This document shows, in pieces, positions 43,703 through 56,470 of a stretch of DNA of 64,000 bases. A program made the position numbers and the translations under genes. The notes below the pieces were generated by a model. That model saw only the letters and a program-made list of their open reading frames with translations, had not been told where the DNA came from and searched no databases. The stretch is from Fibrobacter sp. UWR3. Its GTDB lineage: Bacteria > Fibrobacterota > Fibrobacteria > Fibrobacterales > Fibrobacteraceae. The stretch is from the NCBI RefSeq assembly GCF_900143055.1, contig NZ_FRCW01000002.1, forward strand, positions 186,001 through 250,000. Direction: 5' to 3'. The stretch's first letter is position 1. Each line of letters begins with the position of its first letter.

Positions 43703-43933
43703 TGGCGGTGAAATTAACAATTTTTTTCGCATTTCACCGCCACTTTGTTACGTTATCTGCAACATTTGAGTTTCAAAAGATACTTTTTCGTCATATTCGG
43801 CGGTGAAAACGACATTTTTTCTCTGATTTCACCGCCATCCCGCCACCCTATTCCGCAAACGGCCCTAATTTTTATACAGACAACATAATTTCTGGCGGTG
43901 AAAACGAGCATTTTCACCCTATTTTCACCGCCA
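43703..43933 (+). repeat. Locus of three inverted repeats with arm GGCGGTGAAA
   Basis: Three hairpin-like elements: tggcggtgaaat / atttcaccgcca (43703-43714, 43731-43742), ggcggtgaaa / tttcaccgcc (43799-43808, 43827-43836), tggcggtgaaaa / ttttcaccgcca (43893-43904, 43922-43933). Arms are perfect, spacers 16-18 bases and T-rich, start-to-start distance 96 and 94. Half-sites (cggtggcgaaa, atttcgccgcc) flank the set. The last lies 38 bases before gmk. Confidence 0.85.
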
Positions 43934-50041: not shown

Positions 50042-51535
50042 ATGTCCAGCGCACGTCTTAAAATTTTCTGGCTTTGCCTGCTCGCATTCCCGGCGATAGT
50101 TTTCGCCGGCGATTTTGACTTGCCGGAACTGCCCGAAGCAAAGAACGCTCCGGCTAAAGACACACAAATCACTCCGGAACCGGCGAAAGCATTCAAGCCG
50201 ATTGCCGAACCGGCCGCAAAACCAGCCCCTGCAGGAGATGCTAAAGATGCGACTAATGATGCGTCTAAAGATGCACCTAAAGATGCGCCGGCAAAAAATA
50301 TGCACAAGGACGCACCTAAAGATGCGCCGGAGCAATCGGATTACGACGGTCCCGTAAACTTCGCGCCCATCGAAGCGACAAACGTTTCCGACGCGCACAG
50401 CGCGGGCGCAAATTTACCCGCAGGCATCATCGCGAAGAAGATTCCCGCGAACCTGAACCGCCCCCTGCAGGTGGGCGTATTCACCGGAGTGAAGGAACTC
50501 CTCTGGAAATCGCACGACGCTACATACAAGTTCACCGCAGAGGGGAACAAGGTTATCGCCTCCGGACCGGGGAAACCGCAACCCGATAGCAAATACCAAA
50601 TCAATACGGACGGAGCCTGCATTGCGCTCGCCCCCTCGCAAAAGGAGCTTGCCTCCTCGTGCTACCCGGGCAGTTTTACCCTCACGGCAAAGGGCGGGCT
50701 CTTGACCGCAGTGAATACCGTCGACGTGGAAGAATACCTGCGCGGCGTGGTGCCCTACGAAATCGGCAAGCTCGACAGCAGCAGGTTCAGCGCACTCGAA
50801 TCGCAGGCGATTGCCGCACGCACGTACGCCTACAAGCACTTCGGCAGCCGCGAATCCATGGGATTCGACGTGTACGCCGACACCAAGGACCAGGTTTACA
50901 AGGGGCTCGCGAGCGCAACCCCGCTTACCGACAGCGCCGTGAAGGCCACCGCCGGAATCGTTATGACATACAACGGCGAGTTCATCATCGCGTACTACCA
51001 TTCCACCTGCGGGGGCATGAGCGAGACGCTCGCCACATGGGGCCGGCCCGACCTCCCCTACCTCAAGAGCAAGCCGGACCTGCGGCCCGATGGAACGCCA
51101 TGGTGCAACGAATCGAGTTACAGCAAGTGGGAACGCAACTTTAGCGAAAAGGAACTCCCCGCGCTCTTCAAGAAGAACGGCAAGGAAGCAAACGCGAAGG
51201 TGCCCGAGTTCAAGCACGTGAAGGCGATTGGCGTGAAGGATACGCTTGCTAGCGGAAGAATCCTCACGCTCGAAGTCACTACGGACAAGGGAAAGTTCAC
51301 GGTCGCGGGCGACAAGGTGCGCTGGCTGTTCAAGAAGAACGGGACAATGCTGCCCTCATCATTCTTCAGGGTAAAGCACCACAAGCAGGAATGGAAAATC
51401 GAGGGCAAGGGGTTCGGGCACGGAGTCGGAATGTGCCAGATGGGCGTGCGCGCCCGCAGCGCCGCAGGCCAGGACTTCGCGACCATACTCACGCACTACT
51501 ACCCGGGAATCACGCTGGAGCGTTTCGAGAAATGA
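50042..51535 (+). CDS. SpoIID/LytB-domain protein
   Basis: A 497-residue secreted protein (signal peptide ending VFAGD). Residues about 25-115 are a low-complexity linker with repeats KDAPKDAP; the SpoIID domain covers about 140-495: VDVEEYLRGVVPYEIGKL (catalytic Glu region), ALESQAIAARTYAYKHFGSR, YHSTCGGMSETLATWGRPDLPYL and GFGHGVGMCQMGVRARSAAGQDF. SpoIID proteins are lytic transglycosylases acting on denuded peptidoglycan; in non-sporulating didermic bacteria they are general cell-wall proteins. The stop overlaps the mtaB start (ATGA). Confidence 0.9.
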   Translation: MSSARLKIFWLCLLAFPAIVFAGDFDLPELPEAKNAPAKDTQITPEPAKAFKPIAEPAAKPAPAGDAKDATNDASKDAPKDAPAKNMHKDAPKDAPEQSDYDGPVNFAPIEATNVSDAHSAGANLPAGIIAKKIPANLNRPLQVGVFTGVKELLWKSHDATYKFTAEGNKVIASGPGKPQPDSKYQINTDGACIALAPSQKELASSCYPGSFTLTAKGGLLTAVNTVDVEEYLRGVVPYEIGKLDSSRFSALESQAIAARTYAYKHFGSRESMGFDVYADTKDQVYKGLASATPLTDSAVKATAGIVMTYNGEFIIAYYHSTCGGMSETLATWGRPDLPYLKSKPDLRPDGTPWCNESSYSKWERNFSEKELPALFKKNGKEANAKVPEFKHVKAIGVKDTLASGRILTLEVTTDKGKFTVAGDKVRWLFKKNGTMLPSSFFRVKHHKQEWKIEGKGFGHGVGMCQMGVRARSAAGQDFATILTHYYPGITLERFEK

Positions 51536-53025
51536 GCGCCGAAAATCCGGTATTTGCCGTACTGAGCCAGGGATGTGCCGCGAACTTCGGGGACGGGGAA
51601 AAGATTGCGCGGGCGCTTGCCGCACGCTACAACGCGCGGGTTGTATTCCGGCTGCCGGATGAGCAAGATGCTGCGGGAAGCGTTCGCAATTTACAGGATG
51701 CAGCGGGATGCGCGCCATCCGCACAAGATGTACTCGGGGCTCAAGATGCTGCGAGGAGCTTTTGCACATTACAAGATGTACTCGGGGCTCAAGGTATGCT
51801 CGGGACTCAAGATGCGCTGAGCCTCGGGTCGCAAAGTCCGCCCAGGACTCAAGATGCGCCTAGGGCACAAGATGCGCCGGACGCCATATACTTGAATGTC
51901 TGCACGGTGAAGGGGAACGCGGGTGCTTTGAAACTGCTCCGCACCGCAAGCGAAAGGTTCCCTGGCACACCGCTGTTCATTACGGGATGCGCCCCGAAGG
52001 ACTTCCGCGAAGAAGCGGTCAAGGTTACAGATAAAGTATCATTTACGAGTTTAGAGGAAATCGCCTCTCTAGAGCAAGGCGAAGCCACTGCGATAGAGTC
52101 CAACGTTCTACGCGGATCCCCGTTCGTGGGTATCGTAAACATCGAGGAAGGTTGCCTCGACGCCTGCGCGTTCTGCAGCACGCACCTCGTGAAGGGGCGG
52201 CTCAAAAGCTATGCCCCCGAGGGAATCGTCGAGCAGGTCAAGCGCCTTGTGGCCGACGGATGCACCGAAATCCAGCTGACCGGGCAGGACTGCGCCTGCT
52301 ACGGGTTCGATATCGGCACGAATCTCGCCACCCTCACGCAAAGCATCCTCGTGCATGTTCCCGGCAATTACAAGATACGCCTCGGCATGGGAAACCCGCG
52401 ACACGTATGCGGTTACGCAGGTGCCCTGCTCGAATGCTTCCAGGACAATCGCGTCTACAAGTTCATGCACGTTCCCGTACAAAGCGGGAGCGACAGAATC
52501 CTGAAGGCGATGAACCGGAGGCACACTGCAAGCGAGTTCCGGCGACTCACAAGCGAGTTCAATAAACGGTTCCCGCTCGCCACCCTCAGTACCGACCTGA
52601 TTGTAGGCTTTCCCGGCGAAACGGAAAGCGACTTTCGCGAAACATTGCGACTGCTCGAAGAAACTCGCCCGACGGTATGCAACATCACCCGCTTTGTCGC
52701 CCGGCCGGGTACGGCCGCCGCGCGAATGGAGGCAGATGCAGGCCTCCGCATTCCGGATAGCGTCAAGCACGAGCGTTCCGCCCGCCTGGCGGAAGCGTTC
52801 CAGAAAATCGCCCGCGAGAACAACGCCCTGTGGGTCGGCAAGACCTGCGACGTGGTGGTAGAGAAACCCGGGCACCGCGCAGGCACCTCCATCGCGCGGA
52901 ACGAGGCCTACCGCCCGGTAGCCCTCGCCGGCGACATTCCCGCCGGAACAAAACTGCAAGTGCGCATCACCGACGCAGAAGCATTTGCTCTTATAAGTTT
53001 AATTCGCCATTCCGCCCGAAAATAG
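51532..53025 (+). CDS. tRNA t6A methylthiotransferase, archaeal/CDKAL1-like type
   Basis: A 497-residue radical SAM methylthiotransferase that would convert t6A37 of tRNA to ms2t6A. N-terminal UPF0004 domain with three cluster Cys (LSQGCAANFGD, NVCTVKGNA, TGCAPKDF), radical SAM cluster EEGCLDACAFC, and TRAM domain at the end. The segments TGQDCACYGFDIGTNLATL, IRLGMGNPRHV, FMHVPVQSGSDRILKAMNRRHT and STDLIVGFPGETESDF, and EAYRPVAL in the C-terminal part, follow the archaeal/eukaryotic family rather than ordinary bacterial MtaB. Between the first and second Cys lies a repetitive insert (about residues 44-118). Starts at 51532, overlapping the SpoIID stop. Its TAG stop is part of an inverted repeat. 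Confidence 0.88.
   Translation: MSAENPVFAVLSQGCAANFGDGEKIARALAARYNARVVFRLPDEQDAAGSVRNLQDAAGCAPSAQDVLGAQDAARSFCTLQDVLGAQGMLGTQDALSLGSQSPPRTQDAPRAQDAPDAIYLNVCTVKGNAGALKLLRTASERFPGTPLFITGCAPKDFREEAVKVTDKVSFTSLEEIASLEQGEATAIESNVLRGSPFVGIVNIEEGCLDACAFCSTHLVKGRLKSYAPEGIVEQVKRLVADGCTEIQLTGQDCACYGFDIGTNLATLTQSILVHVPGNYKIRLGMGNPRHVCGYAGALLECFQDNRVYKFMHVPVQSGSDRILKAMNRRHTASEFRRLTSEFNKRFPLATLSTDLIVGFPGETESDFRETLRLLEETRPTVCNITRFVARPGTAAARMEADAGLRIPDSVKHERSARLAEAFQKIARENNALWVGKTCDVVVEKPGHRAGTSIARNEAYRPVALAGDIPAGTKLQVRITDAEAFALISLIRHSARK
51661..51890 (+). repeat. In-frame minisatellite inside the mtaB-like gene
   Basis: About a dozen imperfect copies of an 18-base unit with core caagatg and ctcggg (hexapeptides like QDVLGA), with spacings of 18, 30 and 42 bases, always multiples of three. 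Confidence 0.82.
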
Positions 53026-53293
53026 GACTAAACGCTATGTTTTTGTGCGTTTAGTCCTACGAAAAACAAGTGCATCAATCTGCGGATAGGACTAAATCGT
53101 GCATTTTTTCTATTTAGTCCTATCAAAGCCTCATTTTCTCTGTCGTTCATTTGTCCGAAACGCGCTTTTGTCCCTTTAACGCATTGCGAGATAGGACTAA
53201 AGCACCTTTTTACAACGAAATAGTCCTACATCAGCCATCAGAACCCCTCCCGAGATAGGACTAAAGCACCTGCATTCCACGATTTAGTCCTAT
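53023..53293 (+). repeat. Locus of four inverted repeats with arm TAGGACTAAA
   Basis: Part of the 466-base gap before the fibro-slime gene. Arms: 53023-53034 / 53048-53059 (12 bp, includes the mtaB stop TAG), 53085-53097 / 53112-53124 (13 bp), 53192-53199 / 53221-53228 (8 bp), 53255-53265 / 53283-53293 (11 bp). Spacers of 13-21 bases, T-rich (gcattttttc, ctatgtttttgt, gcacctttttac). Start distances 62, 107 and 63. From 53294 to 53440 I see nothing coding. Confidence 0.88.
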
Positions 53294-53440: not shown

Positions 53441-53474
53441 TAAAAAGAACCCGGCTTTATGCCGGGTTCTTTCT
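53441..53474 (-). terminator. Terminator of the fibro-slime gene
   Basis: Perfect 12-bp stem aaagaacccggc / gccgggttcttt with loop tttat; on the minus strand followed by a T-rich stretch. Confidence 0.8.
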
Positions 53475-53491: not shown

Positions 53492-56254
53492 TTACTTCGT
53501 CGTACGGCGGTACCCGCGCGTCGTCGTGAACGAAGCACGCTGGTACGGAGCATCCACGTACTGGAAGCCGCCACCGCCCATGTAGGCGCAGTACACATAG
53601 TGTTCCTTAATAATGGACACCTGGTAGATGTACGGACCCGTACCGATCTTACGACCCTGCTGGGAAACCGGGTACATCTTGATGGTCACCATCATTTCGC
53701 CCACACCAGTTACATTGGCATAGTCGGTACCGTCGGTACAAGTATTGGACGTCGCGTTCGGCACAGTCTGCGCACTCACCATAGCCTTGAACAGGGCAGG
53801 GTCGGTAACGCCTTCGGTGTACTGGCTAATGAAGTGGCCAAGGTGGTCGAACACGCGCACGTTCACCTGGAACGGCTGAGACGTACGGAACGAAATGCTG
53901 GAGCAGCTTTCCGTGCCGTTCGCATCGGCGTAGCAACGGCCCGAAGCGGCACCGCCCTTATCGCTCACCACAGTCGCACCCGGGCTAGACACGCCACCGT
54001 TGGCATGGCCATCGGCACCCACCGGAGCCGCAGTAATTTCGGTCCAGTGCTCCTCGAGCCAGCCGTTCTGGTCGCCACCGTCAATGAATCCAGGCGGAAG
54101 CGGCGTAATCAGGAGTTCTGCCGTAGAGTTCTTCGGCAGGTCATCGCCACCGGCCTTGTCGGTAAGTTCCTTGTTGTCGAATTCCGGACGCACGAGCGAA
54201 GTATCCTTCATCTCGATAACCGTCGTCGGGTTCACAAGCAACTTTGCAGAAGCCCACTCCGGCGGATACGTTTCCACAGTCTTGCCCGCCTTGGACGAGA
54301 CAAAGAGCGGAGTACCGAACATGGCGAACGTACCGTTGTACATCATGGTCGTCCAGTAGTTGTTGGCTTCGCTCAGCGGGTCGTTGTTCGGGTAGTTGAA
54401 AGCAATCTCGTCACCGGCCTGGAGAGAGTATTCGTTTCCGGCCTTGTCCTTGAGCTTGCCCTGGAGGTCATAGATAACGCCATCGGCGCCCTTGTCCATC
54501 GTGAAGTTAGCGCTTTCGACAAACATGCCAAGTGTATCGTGAGCAAGACACGTTGCAGCCTCGATGCTGTAGTTGGTGCAGCGGACAACCACGAGTGCAG
54601 GAATGGTCCCACTCTGGCCGCCGGCAACCATCATGGCGAGCGTTTCGTCAGAAAGTTCGGTATTCAAGATAAGGCTCGTCGTAGCGACACCGTCGGTAAC
54701 CGTAACTTCGGCACCGGTAACAGTCGGCTGGCCGTACTTGGTCGGAGCAATTTCGGCAAGGGTGGTGCGCATATACATGTTGGAACCATCGGACTGGCGG
54801 TCAGCATAGAAGAAGTGCAGGTGGTGCCAGGTGTTGTCGGCCCAAGAGCCGTCCGGGTTCAAGAAGCAGTTCTGGCCAGCAGCAGTCTGGTTCATAAGAG
54901 GAGGATCCATGTAACCGCTCGCCGCAAGCACAGGGTCTGCATGGCAGCCGTGGCCGTTAGCGGCAAGCACGGAAATGTCCACGCGGCCCGGAGCGGCAAG
55001 GTGAGTACCACCAAGGTCCACCACGAGCACGCCGTCCACGAAGATCCACATGTCGTCGTCACCAGTAAACTCAAAGATTTCCGGGTCCGGAAGGCCAGCG
55101 GCGTTCACCTGGTTCTTGGAGTTGTACTTGAACTTGGCGTAACCCATCATGGTAAAGCCGTAGTTGCGGAGGTGACGAGGGCCAAGCACCGCATCGCTGT
55201 TGGCAGCGGTCAAGGCAGCAATCGGGCTACGCGGGCCACCCGCCATGAGCCACGTGGCACAGAGGCCGGCAGTCTTCGAATTCATCATATCGGCCTGGGT
55301 AGAGGCGTACTGGTAGTCGTAAGGCGGGCAGAAGATGGAGAGCGTCTGCGGACCGTACTGGTCGCACTGGTCCGTGGTGCATCCGCCGTTAGCCTTTGTC
55401 GCCATGTCCAAACGGGTCTGGGAGTTGGTATCCACGATATCGAGCGGGAAGTAACCACCGTTACCGTAGTTGTAGTCCATCGCGTAGATGTTCTTGGAAG
55501 AACCGGCAACGTTCGCAGGCGGGAGCGTAAGCACCGTGTTGGAACGCTTGGCGAATTCGTTGTTGTCGGAATACCAATGTTCAAAGAAGAAGTTGTCACA
55601 AGCATCCTTCGCCTTCAAAATTTCCACGCCATCGAGCATGTCGATTTCGGCACCGGCAGCCGCAGGGGCAAACTTCAGGAACGGCTGGACCATGCCCGGA
55701 GTGTAGTACACGGCGTTCGCCCAGACGTTGCCGTTACACTTCGTTCCGCTGACCATGCCGTCAACGTACTTCTCGTAACCGCGCTGGGTATAACCGCGAG
55801 CAGTCTTGTTGTTGCATTCACCGTACTTAAGCGTATCGGCCGTGGTCGTCAGCTGGAGGTACGACGGGAGCATCGTGTTCGGCAAGTGGGGCCTACCGTC
55901 CTGGCCAATCCAGTCACCCGCCTTGGAACGACCGTTACCGCAGGTCGCATGGAACGGAGCATAAGTCGTGTACCAGGTGGCATCGTAACCAATAGCGCCC
56001 TTCGACACACTCGTATTAAAAATCAGTTCACCGCACGTACCGCCCGTAGCGCCATGGTTCGCACAATAGTTATTGTCACCCGTGCTGATGAACTCTTCCG
56101 AAAAGTTCTCGAAGTCCGGATGCGTCACCGGGAAGTCACGCACCACAATGTCGAGGTTCGCGGCACCAGCCACGTCGGCATGCACCGGCGTAAAGCTAAC
56201 CAAACCAAAAGACACCGCGGAGAGTGCCAATCCTGCTACCAATTTTCTTTTCAT
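53492..56254 (-). CDS. Fibro-slime domain protein
   Basis: A 920-residue secreted protein (start 56254, ribosome site gtggagattgg, signal peptide ending TPVHADV). The N-terminal half carries a fibro-slime domain: LDIVVRDFPVTHPDFENFSEE (residue about 35), then around 400 EFTGDDDMWIFVDGVLVVDLGGTHLAAPGRVDI, and the flanking FYADRQSDGSNMYMRTTLAEI. The rest is beta-rich with Ig-like segments; the last 25 residues are basic and aromatic (FTTTRGYRRTTK), which resembles a C-terminal sorting tail but is not a known signal. Fibro-slime proteins were described in F. succinogenes as outer-surface cellulose-adhesion components. A hairpin lies just before the ribosome site. Confidence 0.93.
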   Translation of the reverse strand: MKRKLVAGLALSAVSFGLVSFTPVHADVAGAANLDIVVRDFPVTHPDFENFSEEFISTGDNNYCANHGATGGTCGELIFNTSVSKGAIGYDATWYTTYAPFHATCGNGRSKAGDWIGQDGRPHLPNTMLPSYLQLTTTADTLKYGECNNKTARGYTQRGYEKYVDGMVSGTKCNGNVWANAVYYTPGMVQPFLKFAPAAAGAEIDMLDGVEILKAKDACDNFFFEHWYSDNNEFAKRSNTVLTLPPANVAGSSKNIYAMDYNYGNGGYFPLDIVDTNSQTRLDMATKANGGCTTDQCDQYGPQTLSIFCPPYDYQYASTQADMMNSKTAGLCATWLMAGGPRSPIAALTAANSDAVLGPRHLRNYGFTMMGYAKFKYNSKNQVNAAGLPDPEIFEFTGDDDMWIFVDGVLVVDLGGTHLAAPGRVDISVLAANGHGCHADPVLAASGYMDPPLMNQTAAGQNCFLNPDGSWADNTWHHLHFFYADRQSDGSNMYMRTTLAEIAPTKYGQPTVTGAEVTVTDGVATTSLILNTELSDETLAMMVAGGQSGTIPALVVVRCTNYSIEAATCLAHDTLGMFVESANFTMDKGADGVIYDLQGKLKDKAGNEYSLQAGDEIAFNYPNNDPLSEANNYWTTMMYNGTFAMFGTPLFVSSKAGKTVETYPPEWASAKLLVNPTTVIEMKDTSLVRPEFDNKELTDKAGGDDLPKNSTAELLITPLPPGFIDGGDQNGWLEEHWTEITAAPVGADGHANGGVSSPGATVVSDKGGAASGRCYADANGTESCSSISFRTSQPFQVNVRVFDHLGHFISQYTEGVTDPALFKAMVSAQTVPNATSNTCTDGTDYANVTGVGEMMVTIKMYPVSQQGRKIGTGPYIYQVSIIKEHYVYCAYMGGGGFQYVDAPYQRASFTTTRGYRRTTK

Positions 56255-56268
56255 AATATCCAATCTCC

Positions 56269-56287
56269 ACCTATTTGCACAATAGGT
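56269..56287 (-). promoter_or_regulatory. Leader hairpin before the fibro-slime ribosome site
   Basis: acctatt / aataggt, 7-bp stem, loop of 5, ending directly 5' of the ggag ribosome site on the minus strand. It could regulate translation or protect the mRNA 5' end. Confidence 0.4.
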
Positions 56288-56470
56288 AAACAATACATAC
56301 CTAAATATAAACCAAAATTGCGCTTTTATTCCCGTCTGGAATTGAAAAATATCATAAATATGGGCATTTTTCGCATTTTTGTGACCTAAAACATAGCGTT
56401 TAGACCACCTCCCCAGGTCCAAACGCCCCGTTTTTCCAAATTTGCAGGGTACTGTTCTATATTTGCGGGC

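Follow-up and report, generated by a model that had tools for sequence, protein, structure and literature searches.

The window, a 64,000-nucleotide stretch of the Fibrobacter sp. UWR3 genome, contains four palindromes behind an mtaB-like gene that very probably form a binding array for a sequence-specific protein. This protein, encoded outside the window at C4:114162-114983, would combine a PD-(D/E)XK nuclease-like C-terminal domain with an N-terminus of ~72 residues that reads the palindrome arms. Its assembly on one face of the DNA would bend the array, and the complex would act in autoregulation near its own gene and as a boundary or architectural block at dispersed arrays. From the helical phasing of the elements, their association with a gene and the co-variation of specificity we infer physical binding to the arrays as operators; a dimeric state, autoregulation and a function for the dispersed sites are proposed, and DNA cutting is putative.

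Palindrome arrays in the window and across Fibrobacter

The elements of the window array have 10-bp arms and no assigned strand, and they are found at 53023-53292, behind the mtaB-like gene, as an earlier note on this DNA had described. Element 1 (53023-53059, TAGGACTAAA-N17-TTTAGTCCTA) is followed 64 bp, or ~6 helical turns, from start to start by element 2 (53087-53122, TAGGACTAAA-N16-TTTAGTCCTA). Element 3 (53192-53228, TAGGACTAAA-N17-AATAGTCCTA) starts another 105 bp (~10 turns) downstream, and element 4 (53256-53292, TAGGACTAAA-N17-TTTAGTCCTA) starts 64 bp after that. The mtaB-like ORF (51391-53025, plus strand) ends inside element 1, its stop codon lying in the first arm as the note had observed, and converges with a 976-aa gene (53492-56422, minus strand) that was named fibro-slime-like by inspection, with no family search. 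The array occupies part of the gap between the two. An ordinary GC-rich inverted repeat (53444-53472, no strand), distinct from the array and located between it and the convergent gene, is likely a two-way intrinsic terminator.

Seven of the eight arms are exact copies of TAGGACTAAA; the exception is the right arm of element 3 (AATAGTCCTA, two mismatches). The window holds eight matches to TAGGACTAAA with at most one mismatch against 1.5 expected, which excludes chance. The spacers, previously given as 13-21 bases, are in fact nearly constant in length at 17, 16, 17 and 17 nt, and it is their sequence that varies. Elements 3 and 4 with their flanks are 76% alike across 59 nt, which identifies a local duplication.

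A second array in the window comprises three elements of the form GGCGGTGAAA...TTTCACCGCC (43704-43741, 43799-43836 and 43894-43932, no strand) with arms unlike those at 53023-53292. Their centres are 95 and 95.5 bp apart, corresponding to 9 turns. This array lies upstream of a guanylate kinase-like ORF, and a 460-aa ORF on the minus strand borders it on the other side.

In the genome containing the window (G000; 3.55 Mb, 20 contigs) the exact 10-mer TAGGACTAAA occurs 61 times, nearly always paired across a spacer of 16-18 nt, and every copy falls into one of eight clusters; a reversed control pattern gave 14 matches of the scattered type. Exact inverted pairs number 28 against 0 for the control. 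Arms scattered singly, or clusters absent elsewhere in the genome, had been named as observations that would speak against paired elements, and the genome-wide search revealed neither. The strict pattern GGACYAAW-N16..18-WTTRGTCC occurs in 17 of 80 Fibrobacter genomes, with one match for the control; the genomes searched represent 80 species of Fibrobacter. In related species the arms are lineage-specific, for example AAGGACTAAA, ACGGACTAAA and ATGGACCAAA. The form TAGGACTAAA with a span of 37 is found in G000 and G082, TAGGACTAA[A/T] with a span of 36 in G009, [A/G]AGGACTAAA in G024, G063, G076 and G080, ACGGACTAAA with a G-rich centre in G029, and ATGGACCAAA in G021. Many element centres consist of an A- or G-tract, and within a cluster these tracts mostly point in the same direction. 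Only the arms and the composition of the centre are conserved, and spacers differ from locus to locus. A pattern scan of GTDB contigs returned more than one match only at Fibrobacter loci, the remaining matches being single background pairs, and a plasmid search with array DNA gave no match.

Other repeats were seen in these genomes. An TAGTACTAAA...ATTAGTACTA element, the same including its spacer in G009 and G076 (L216:8529-8564, L217:8335-8370), follows a ~1000-aa gene at a distance of 12 bp, and weaker copies adjoin it. Four 43-bp inverted pairs (GTGCAAGT) in G076 (L246:2433-2724), spaced by 83 bp and poorly phased, may be an unrelated tandem repeat.

Helical spacing of the elements

The centre-to-centre distances of neighbouring elements are multiples of 10.55 bp (vector strength 0.938; n=147, at least 12 genomes, 42-180 bp); a first set of distances had reached 221 bp. 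When tandem-duplicated loci are left out, 83 distances retain a vector strength of 0.933 (Rayleigh p ~4e-32; this and the other p-values are optimistic, since the species are related and independence is overstated, many genomes are metagenome assemblies and gene calls are crude). The best period among those tried between 4 and 40 bp is 10.5, and the gene-adjacent arrays of the paralogs described below give a vector strength of 0.95 at 10.5 bp over 60 distances. The linkers are phased as well: AAA/TTT that lies 24 bp or more from every element centre keeps register with the dyads of the elements (R=0.49, n=537, p ~3e-57). The A/T fraction has maxima at 0, 10, 21, 31, 42 and 52 bp and minima near 5, 27, 37 and 48. 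Degenerate, uncalled elements could contribute to this A/T phasing, which fades farther outside the arrays, where it is weak or absent.

Phased A/T together with the element spacing is a signature of DNA bent to one side. These features point to duplex DNA organised for same-face protein binding and bending, and not to RNA hairpins. Of the functions proposed in the earlier note, binding sites of a dimeric DNA-binding protein are strongly supported by the phasing and by the candidate protein family described below. Templates for a fold-back enzyme find no such support, since the phasing belongs to duplex DNA.

It is very improbable that the arrays act at the RNA level, as two-way terminators or regulatory hairpins. 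The array transcript does fold strongly (z -6.7), but folding is expected of any inverted repeat. The position between convergent genes and the T runs beside ~40% of the outermost elements would suit a terminator, as would the fact that convergent gaps with an array less often contain another intrinsic terminator (4/18 vs 20/43), although the terminator test is not significant when counted per 3' end. RNA provides no explanation for helical-turn spacing over 42-221 bp or for phased A/T tracts, and Rfam and tRNA searches found nothing at the arrays.

A protein family paired with the arrays

The partner gene, which is atypical and escapes codon-based gene calling, was recognised by reading the ~950-bp gap beside lspA-linked arrays. 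In G000 it codes for 274 residues, and an array lies 86 bp upstream of the gene. Homologs adjoin an array in G000, G009, G024, G063, G076, G082, G007, G029 and RUG11683. Members occur in 49 of the 80 Fibrobacter genomes, as many as eight matches being found in one genome; all 17 genomes with GGACYAAW elements have the family as compared to 32 of the 63 others (p=1.2e-4).

No Pfam family scores above cut-off for this protein, and there is no NCBIfam assignment. PADLOC models of the PD-(D/E)XK type match the C-terminus. SKSE, PD[F/Y]-type and EH motifs are kept in 57/57 loci, the family alignment has invariant columns, and the acidic motifs reside in an alpha-beta core with the helix and strand order of the PD-(D/E)XK superfamily. 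The structure model (mean pLDDT 73.8, four sequences) predicts an N-terminal helix, a three-stranded sheet, long helices and a nuclease-like domain; the remaining four models of the family have pLDDT values of 40-56. The closest folds to the C-terminal domain are I-Bth0305I (3r3p; Z 8.5, rmsd 2.7 Å, 90 residues), TnsA (1t0f; Z 8.1, rmsd 3.4 Å, 114 residues) and Bax1 (Z 8.0), where a Z of ~8 supports a shared fold, not a function. Since Foldseek returned no PDB match with E <0.001, the nuclease assignment is based on the motifs, the PADLOC models and a VIA second look; PDB sequence searches gave no significant match. Judged from sequence and model, the C-terminus looks like a PD-(D/E)XK nuclease with putative cleavage activity.

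No cognate methyltransferase gene, as a restriction-modification system would have, was recognised beside the partner gene in the loci inspected, the neighbours of which are annotated in part. Viral contig scans revealed no relative, and plasmid matches cover the C-terminal domain only. A human faecal contig filed as phage (MT839528.1; L335:3033-3833) encodes a near full-length relative with 29% identity, the sole one inspected outside Fibrobacter, beside a leucine-rich-repeat-like gene; no array precedes it. Members of the family thus also exist outside Fibrobacter. Genes for Rpn-family recombination-promoting nucleases/putative transposases occur near two arrays of different species (L251:8607-9836, L238:5169-6158), probably by coincidence.

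A phased array with paralog-specific arms lies just upstream of ~44 of the 53 distinct paralogs examined by a lax test. A strict test finds one at 46/57 paralog loci, a few of which are the same gene fetched twice, and in 0/285 shuffled windows, 1/600 random genomic windows and 5/57 downstream windows. The arms include TTACATACTAAA, GTACCTATAAA, GGGGC[G/A]TATAAA, ATGCATATAAAA, TGTCACTAAA and CACCCACTAAA. Gene-adjacent and dispersed arrays of the same genome agree in their outer bases, in T/C at position 7, in span and in centre type. A second arm type, TTACATAC, forms dispersed pairs in 18/80 genomes; G006 has 26 of these pairs over many contigs, including those upstream of its paralog. G000 encodes a second paralog (C1:207098-207856; L315:2090-3290) with its own three-element TTACATAC array upstream, and these arms are unlike the GGCGGTGAAA arms of the array at 43704-43932. 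Several systems with different arms coexist in single genomes. No examined paralog has matching arms in G011, G021 and G062 (metagenome-assembled genomes, 82-88% complete; the G011 paralogs were fetched in part).

At two loci the gene is flanked by arrays. In G029 (L250:1-1856 and the end of L255) the partner gene lies between arrays with identical elements, as if a ~1.7-kb unit had been tandemly duplicated, and a contig also ends in the same element. In G021 (L328:2081-3529) a paralog gene stands between arrays that have the same arms (TGTGACTAA) and spacers that are in part alike.

Natural chimeras indicate which part of the protein may read the arms. The proteins of L298 and L300 are 97% identical over residues 80-274 and 22-23% identical over residues 1-72, and their arms are TTACATACTAAA and GTACCTATAAA, respectively. 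Likewise, the L313 and L311 proteins share 97% of the C-terminus and 46% of the N-terminus, and their arms differ. Across 33 paralogs, arm similarity tracks the identity of residues 39-72 best (Mantel r 0.57), also after removal of the nuclease domain (partial r 0.44, p 5e-4). Chimeras and correlation together suggest that the N-terminal ~72 residues, predicted to form a helix plus a three-stranded sheet, most likely set arm specificity. With dozens of independent natural protein-site pairs, a recognition code becomes legible from sequence alone; examples are LRIDKC with GTACCT, NH[G/N] with TTAC, and LRVQPHK with GGGGC.

We consider it unlikely that the arrays are products of a mobile system of the REP/RAYT-like or homing type, in which the nuclease-like protein would move or seed palindromes. 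Such a system could account for the fold, which is nearest to I-Bth0305I and TnsA, for the patchy distribution with several paralogs per genome, for tandem growth of arrays, for the flanking of the gene by arrays in G029 and G021, and for a relative without an array at a syntenic site. However, loci within a genome share arms and geometry and little other sequence, and no target-site duplication or empty site is defined. In addition, the TTACATAC arrays of G006, G036 and G082 have one constant 63+136 bp geometry in common while their linkers are unrelated, which fits selection for binding better than copying. The earlier idea of transposon-like end pairs may hold: the partner has a nuclease-like fold, but what the loci have in common is arms and geometry and not a transposed sequence.

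Dispersed arrays and known systems

GGAC-type arrays favour gaps between convergent genes (29/58, three of them hand-corrected, vs 42/289 background gaps, p=2e-8) and avoid those between divergent genes (5/58 vs 72/289). Arrays of the TTACATAC type show no convergent enrichment (4/18), and this makes one common role for dispersed arrays doubtful. Some loci, such as pmbA/lgt, have arrays in five species; G088, in which no paralog occurs, lacks an array at each of 17 orthologous loci.

An ordinary regulon, with a new family of transcription regulators for which all arrays are operators and in which the nuclease-like domain serves only for dimerisation or ligand sensing, is possible, although on balance we doubt it. 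Most paralog genes have an upstream array, as expected for autoregulation, six of the 18 scorable TTACATAC arrays lie between divergent genes, and the array at 43704-43932 precedes the guanylate kinase-like ORF. On the other hand, the convergent gaps favoured by the TAGGACTAAA family are normally promoterless, array neighbours are mostly housekeeping genes with no common function, and all three nuclease motif types are retained at every locus of the 57.

The same lack of a functional theme among neighbours, together with the occurrence of several arrays per genome and of arrays adjoining dnaA in G009, could indicate sites of chromosome-domain organisation or segregation at the origin or terminus. 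We regard this as distinctly unlikely: origin/terminus mapping in G088 and G069 places array neighbours all over the chromosome, array orientation is independent of the replication strand, to which tract direction has no relation, the arm type is absent from most Fibrobacter genomes, and systems with different arms coexist within one genome.

We favour an array of protein binding sites. Each palindrome of 36-37 bp would be bound by one symmetric unit, probably a dimer, that reads the arms through its N-terminal helix and sheet. Units on adjacent palindromes would co-operate on one DNA face, and the phased A/T tracts would let the whole array bend or wrap around the complex. Upstream of the protein's own gene the most likely role would be autoregulation, and at dispersed arrays, which in the arm family of the window lie mostly in convergent gaps, a boundary or architectural block.

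This work connects a protein family that had not been characterised with the DNA sites that it likely targets. The strict phasing of sites and A/T tracts suggests a bacterial protein by which selected DNA segments are wrapped or looped in an orderly manner. If the partner cuts or moves DNA, it would represent a mobile or selfish system of a new type; if it does neither, a new kind of boundary or regulator. A more speculative and doubtful reading is a nuclease-fold family with exchangeable N-terminal specificity modules, each of which would maintain, and perhaps create or homogenise, its own genome-wide set of phased palindrome arrays with nucleosome-like wrapped DNA, such that a binding site spreads and not a copied segment.

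The sequences point to an undescribed system in which each protein copy would have its own set of sites; searches in the open literature turned up no account of it, which is not proof that none exists. As a candidate class, intrinsic terminators, which are GC-rich hairpins with a short loop and a T run behind them, were rejected: the elements have loops of 16-18 nt, and a T run follows the arm in less than half of outer and about one fifth of inner elements.

REP sequences and BIMEs are short extragenic palindromes that occur with a REP-associated tyrosine transposase, RAYT (PMC2817692). The Fibrobacter palindromes are similarly short, extragenic, dispersed or clustered, arranged in regularly spaced composites and associated with an enzyme gene. 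However, RAYT is a Y1 (HUH) tyrosine transposase whereas the Fibrobacter partner has a PD-(D/E)XK-like domain; REP sequences exceed 100 copies as compared to about ten arrays per genome; and one conserved hairpin with a GTAG/CGTC tag contrasts with arms around variable spacers. Strict helical phasing and several paralogous gene-array pairs per genome further set the Fibrobacter arrays apart.

The EDxHD and other PD-(D/E)XK homing endonucleases (families in PMC6083498, reviewed in PMC3943268) include I-Bth0305I, the best structural match of the partner C-terminus. A homing gene resides within its own target, which it thereby protects. The partner gene was not seen in an intron or intein, multi-palindrome arrays persist beside it, no empty target was identified, and its cleavage activity is putative. 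TnsA of Tn7-like transposons also matches the partner C-terminus in fold, but no TnsB or TnsC was recognised in the loci inspected and no transposon ends are defined. The PDC-S68 proteins of PADLOC, a candidate for defence, are related to the C-terminal ~115-135 residues (E 1e-22 to 5e-26); their models comprise ~1200 residues and have only this nuclease-like part in common with the partner.

Finally, whole-helical-turn spacing is familiar from cooperative repressor operators, where it signifies same-face cooperative binding. The Fibrobacter arrays differ from such operators in having up to seven sites, phasing over ~4-21 turns and phased A/T linkers, and in that GGAC-type arrays lie mostly at the 3' ends of genes.
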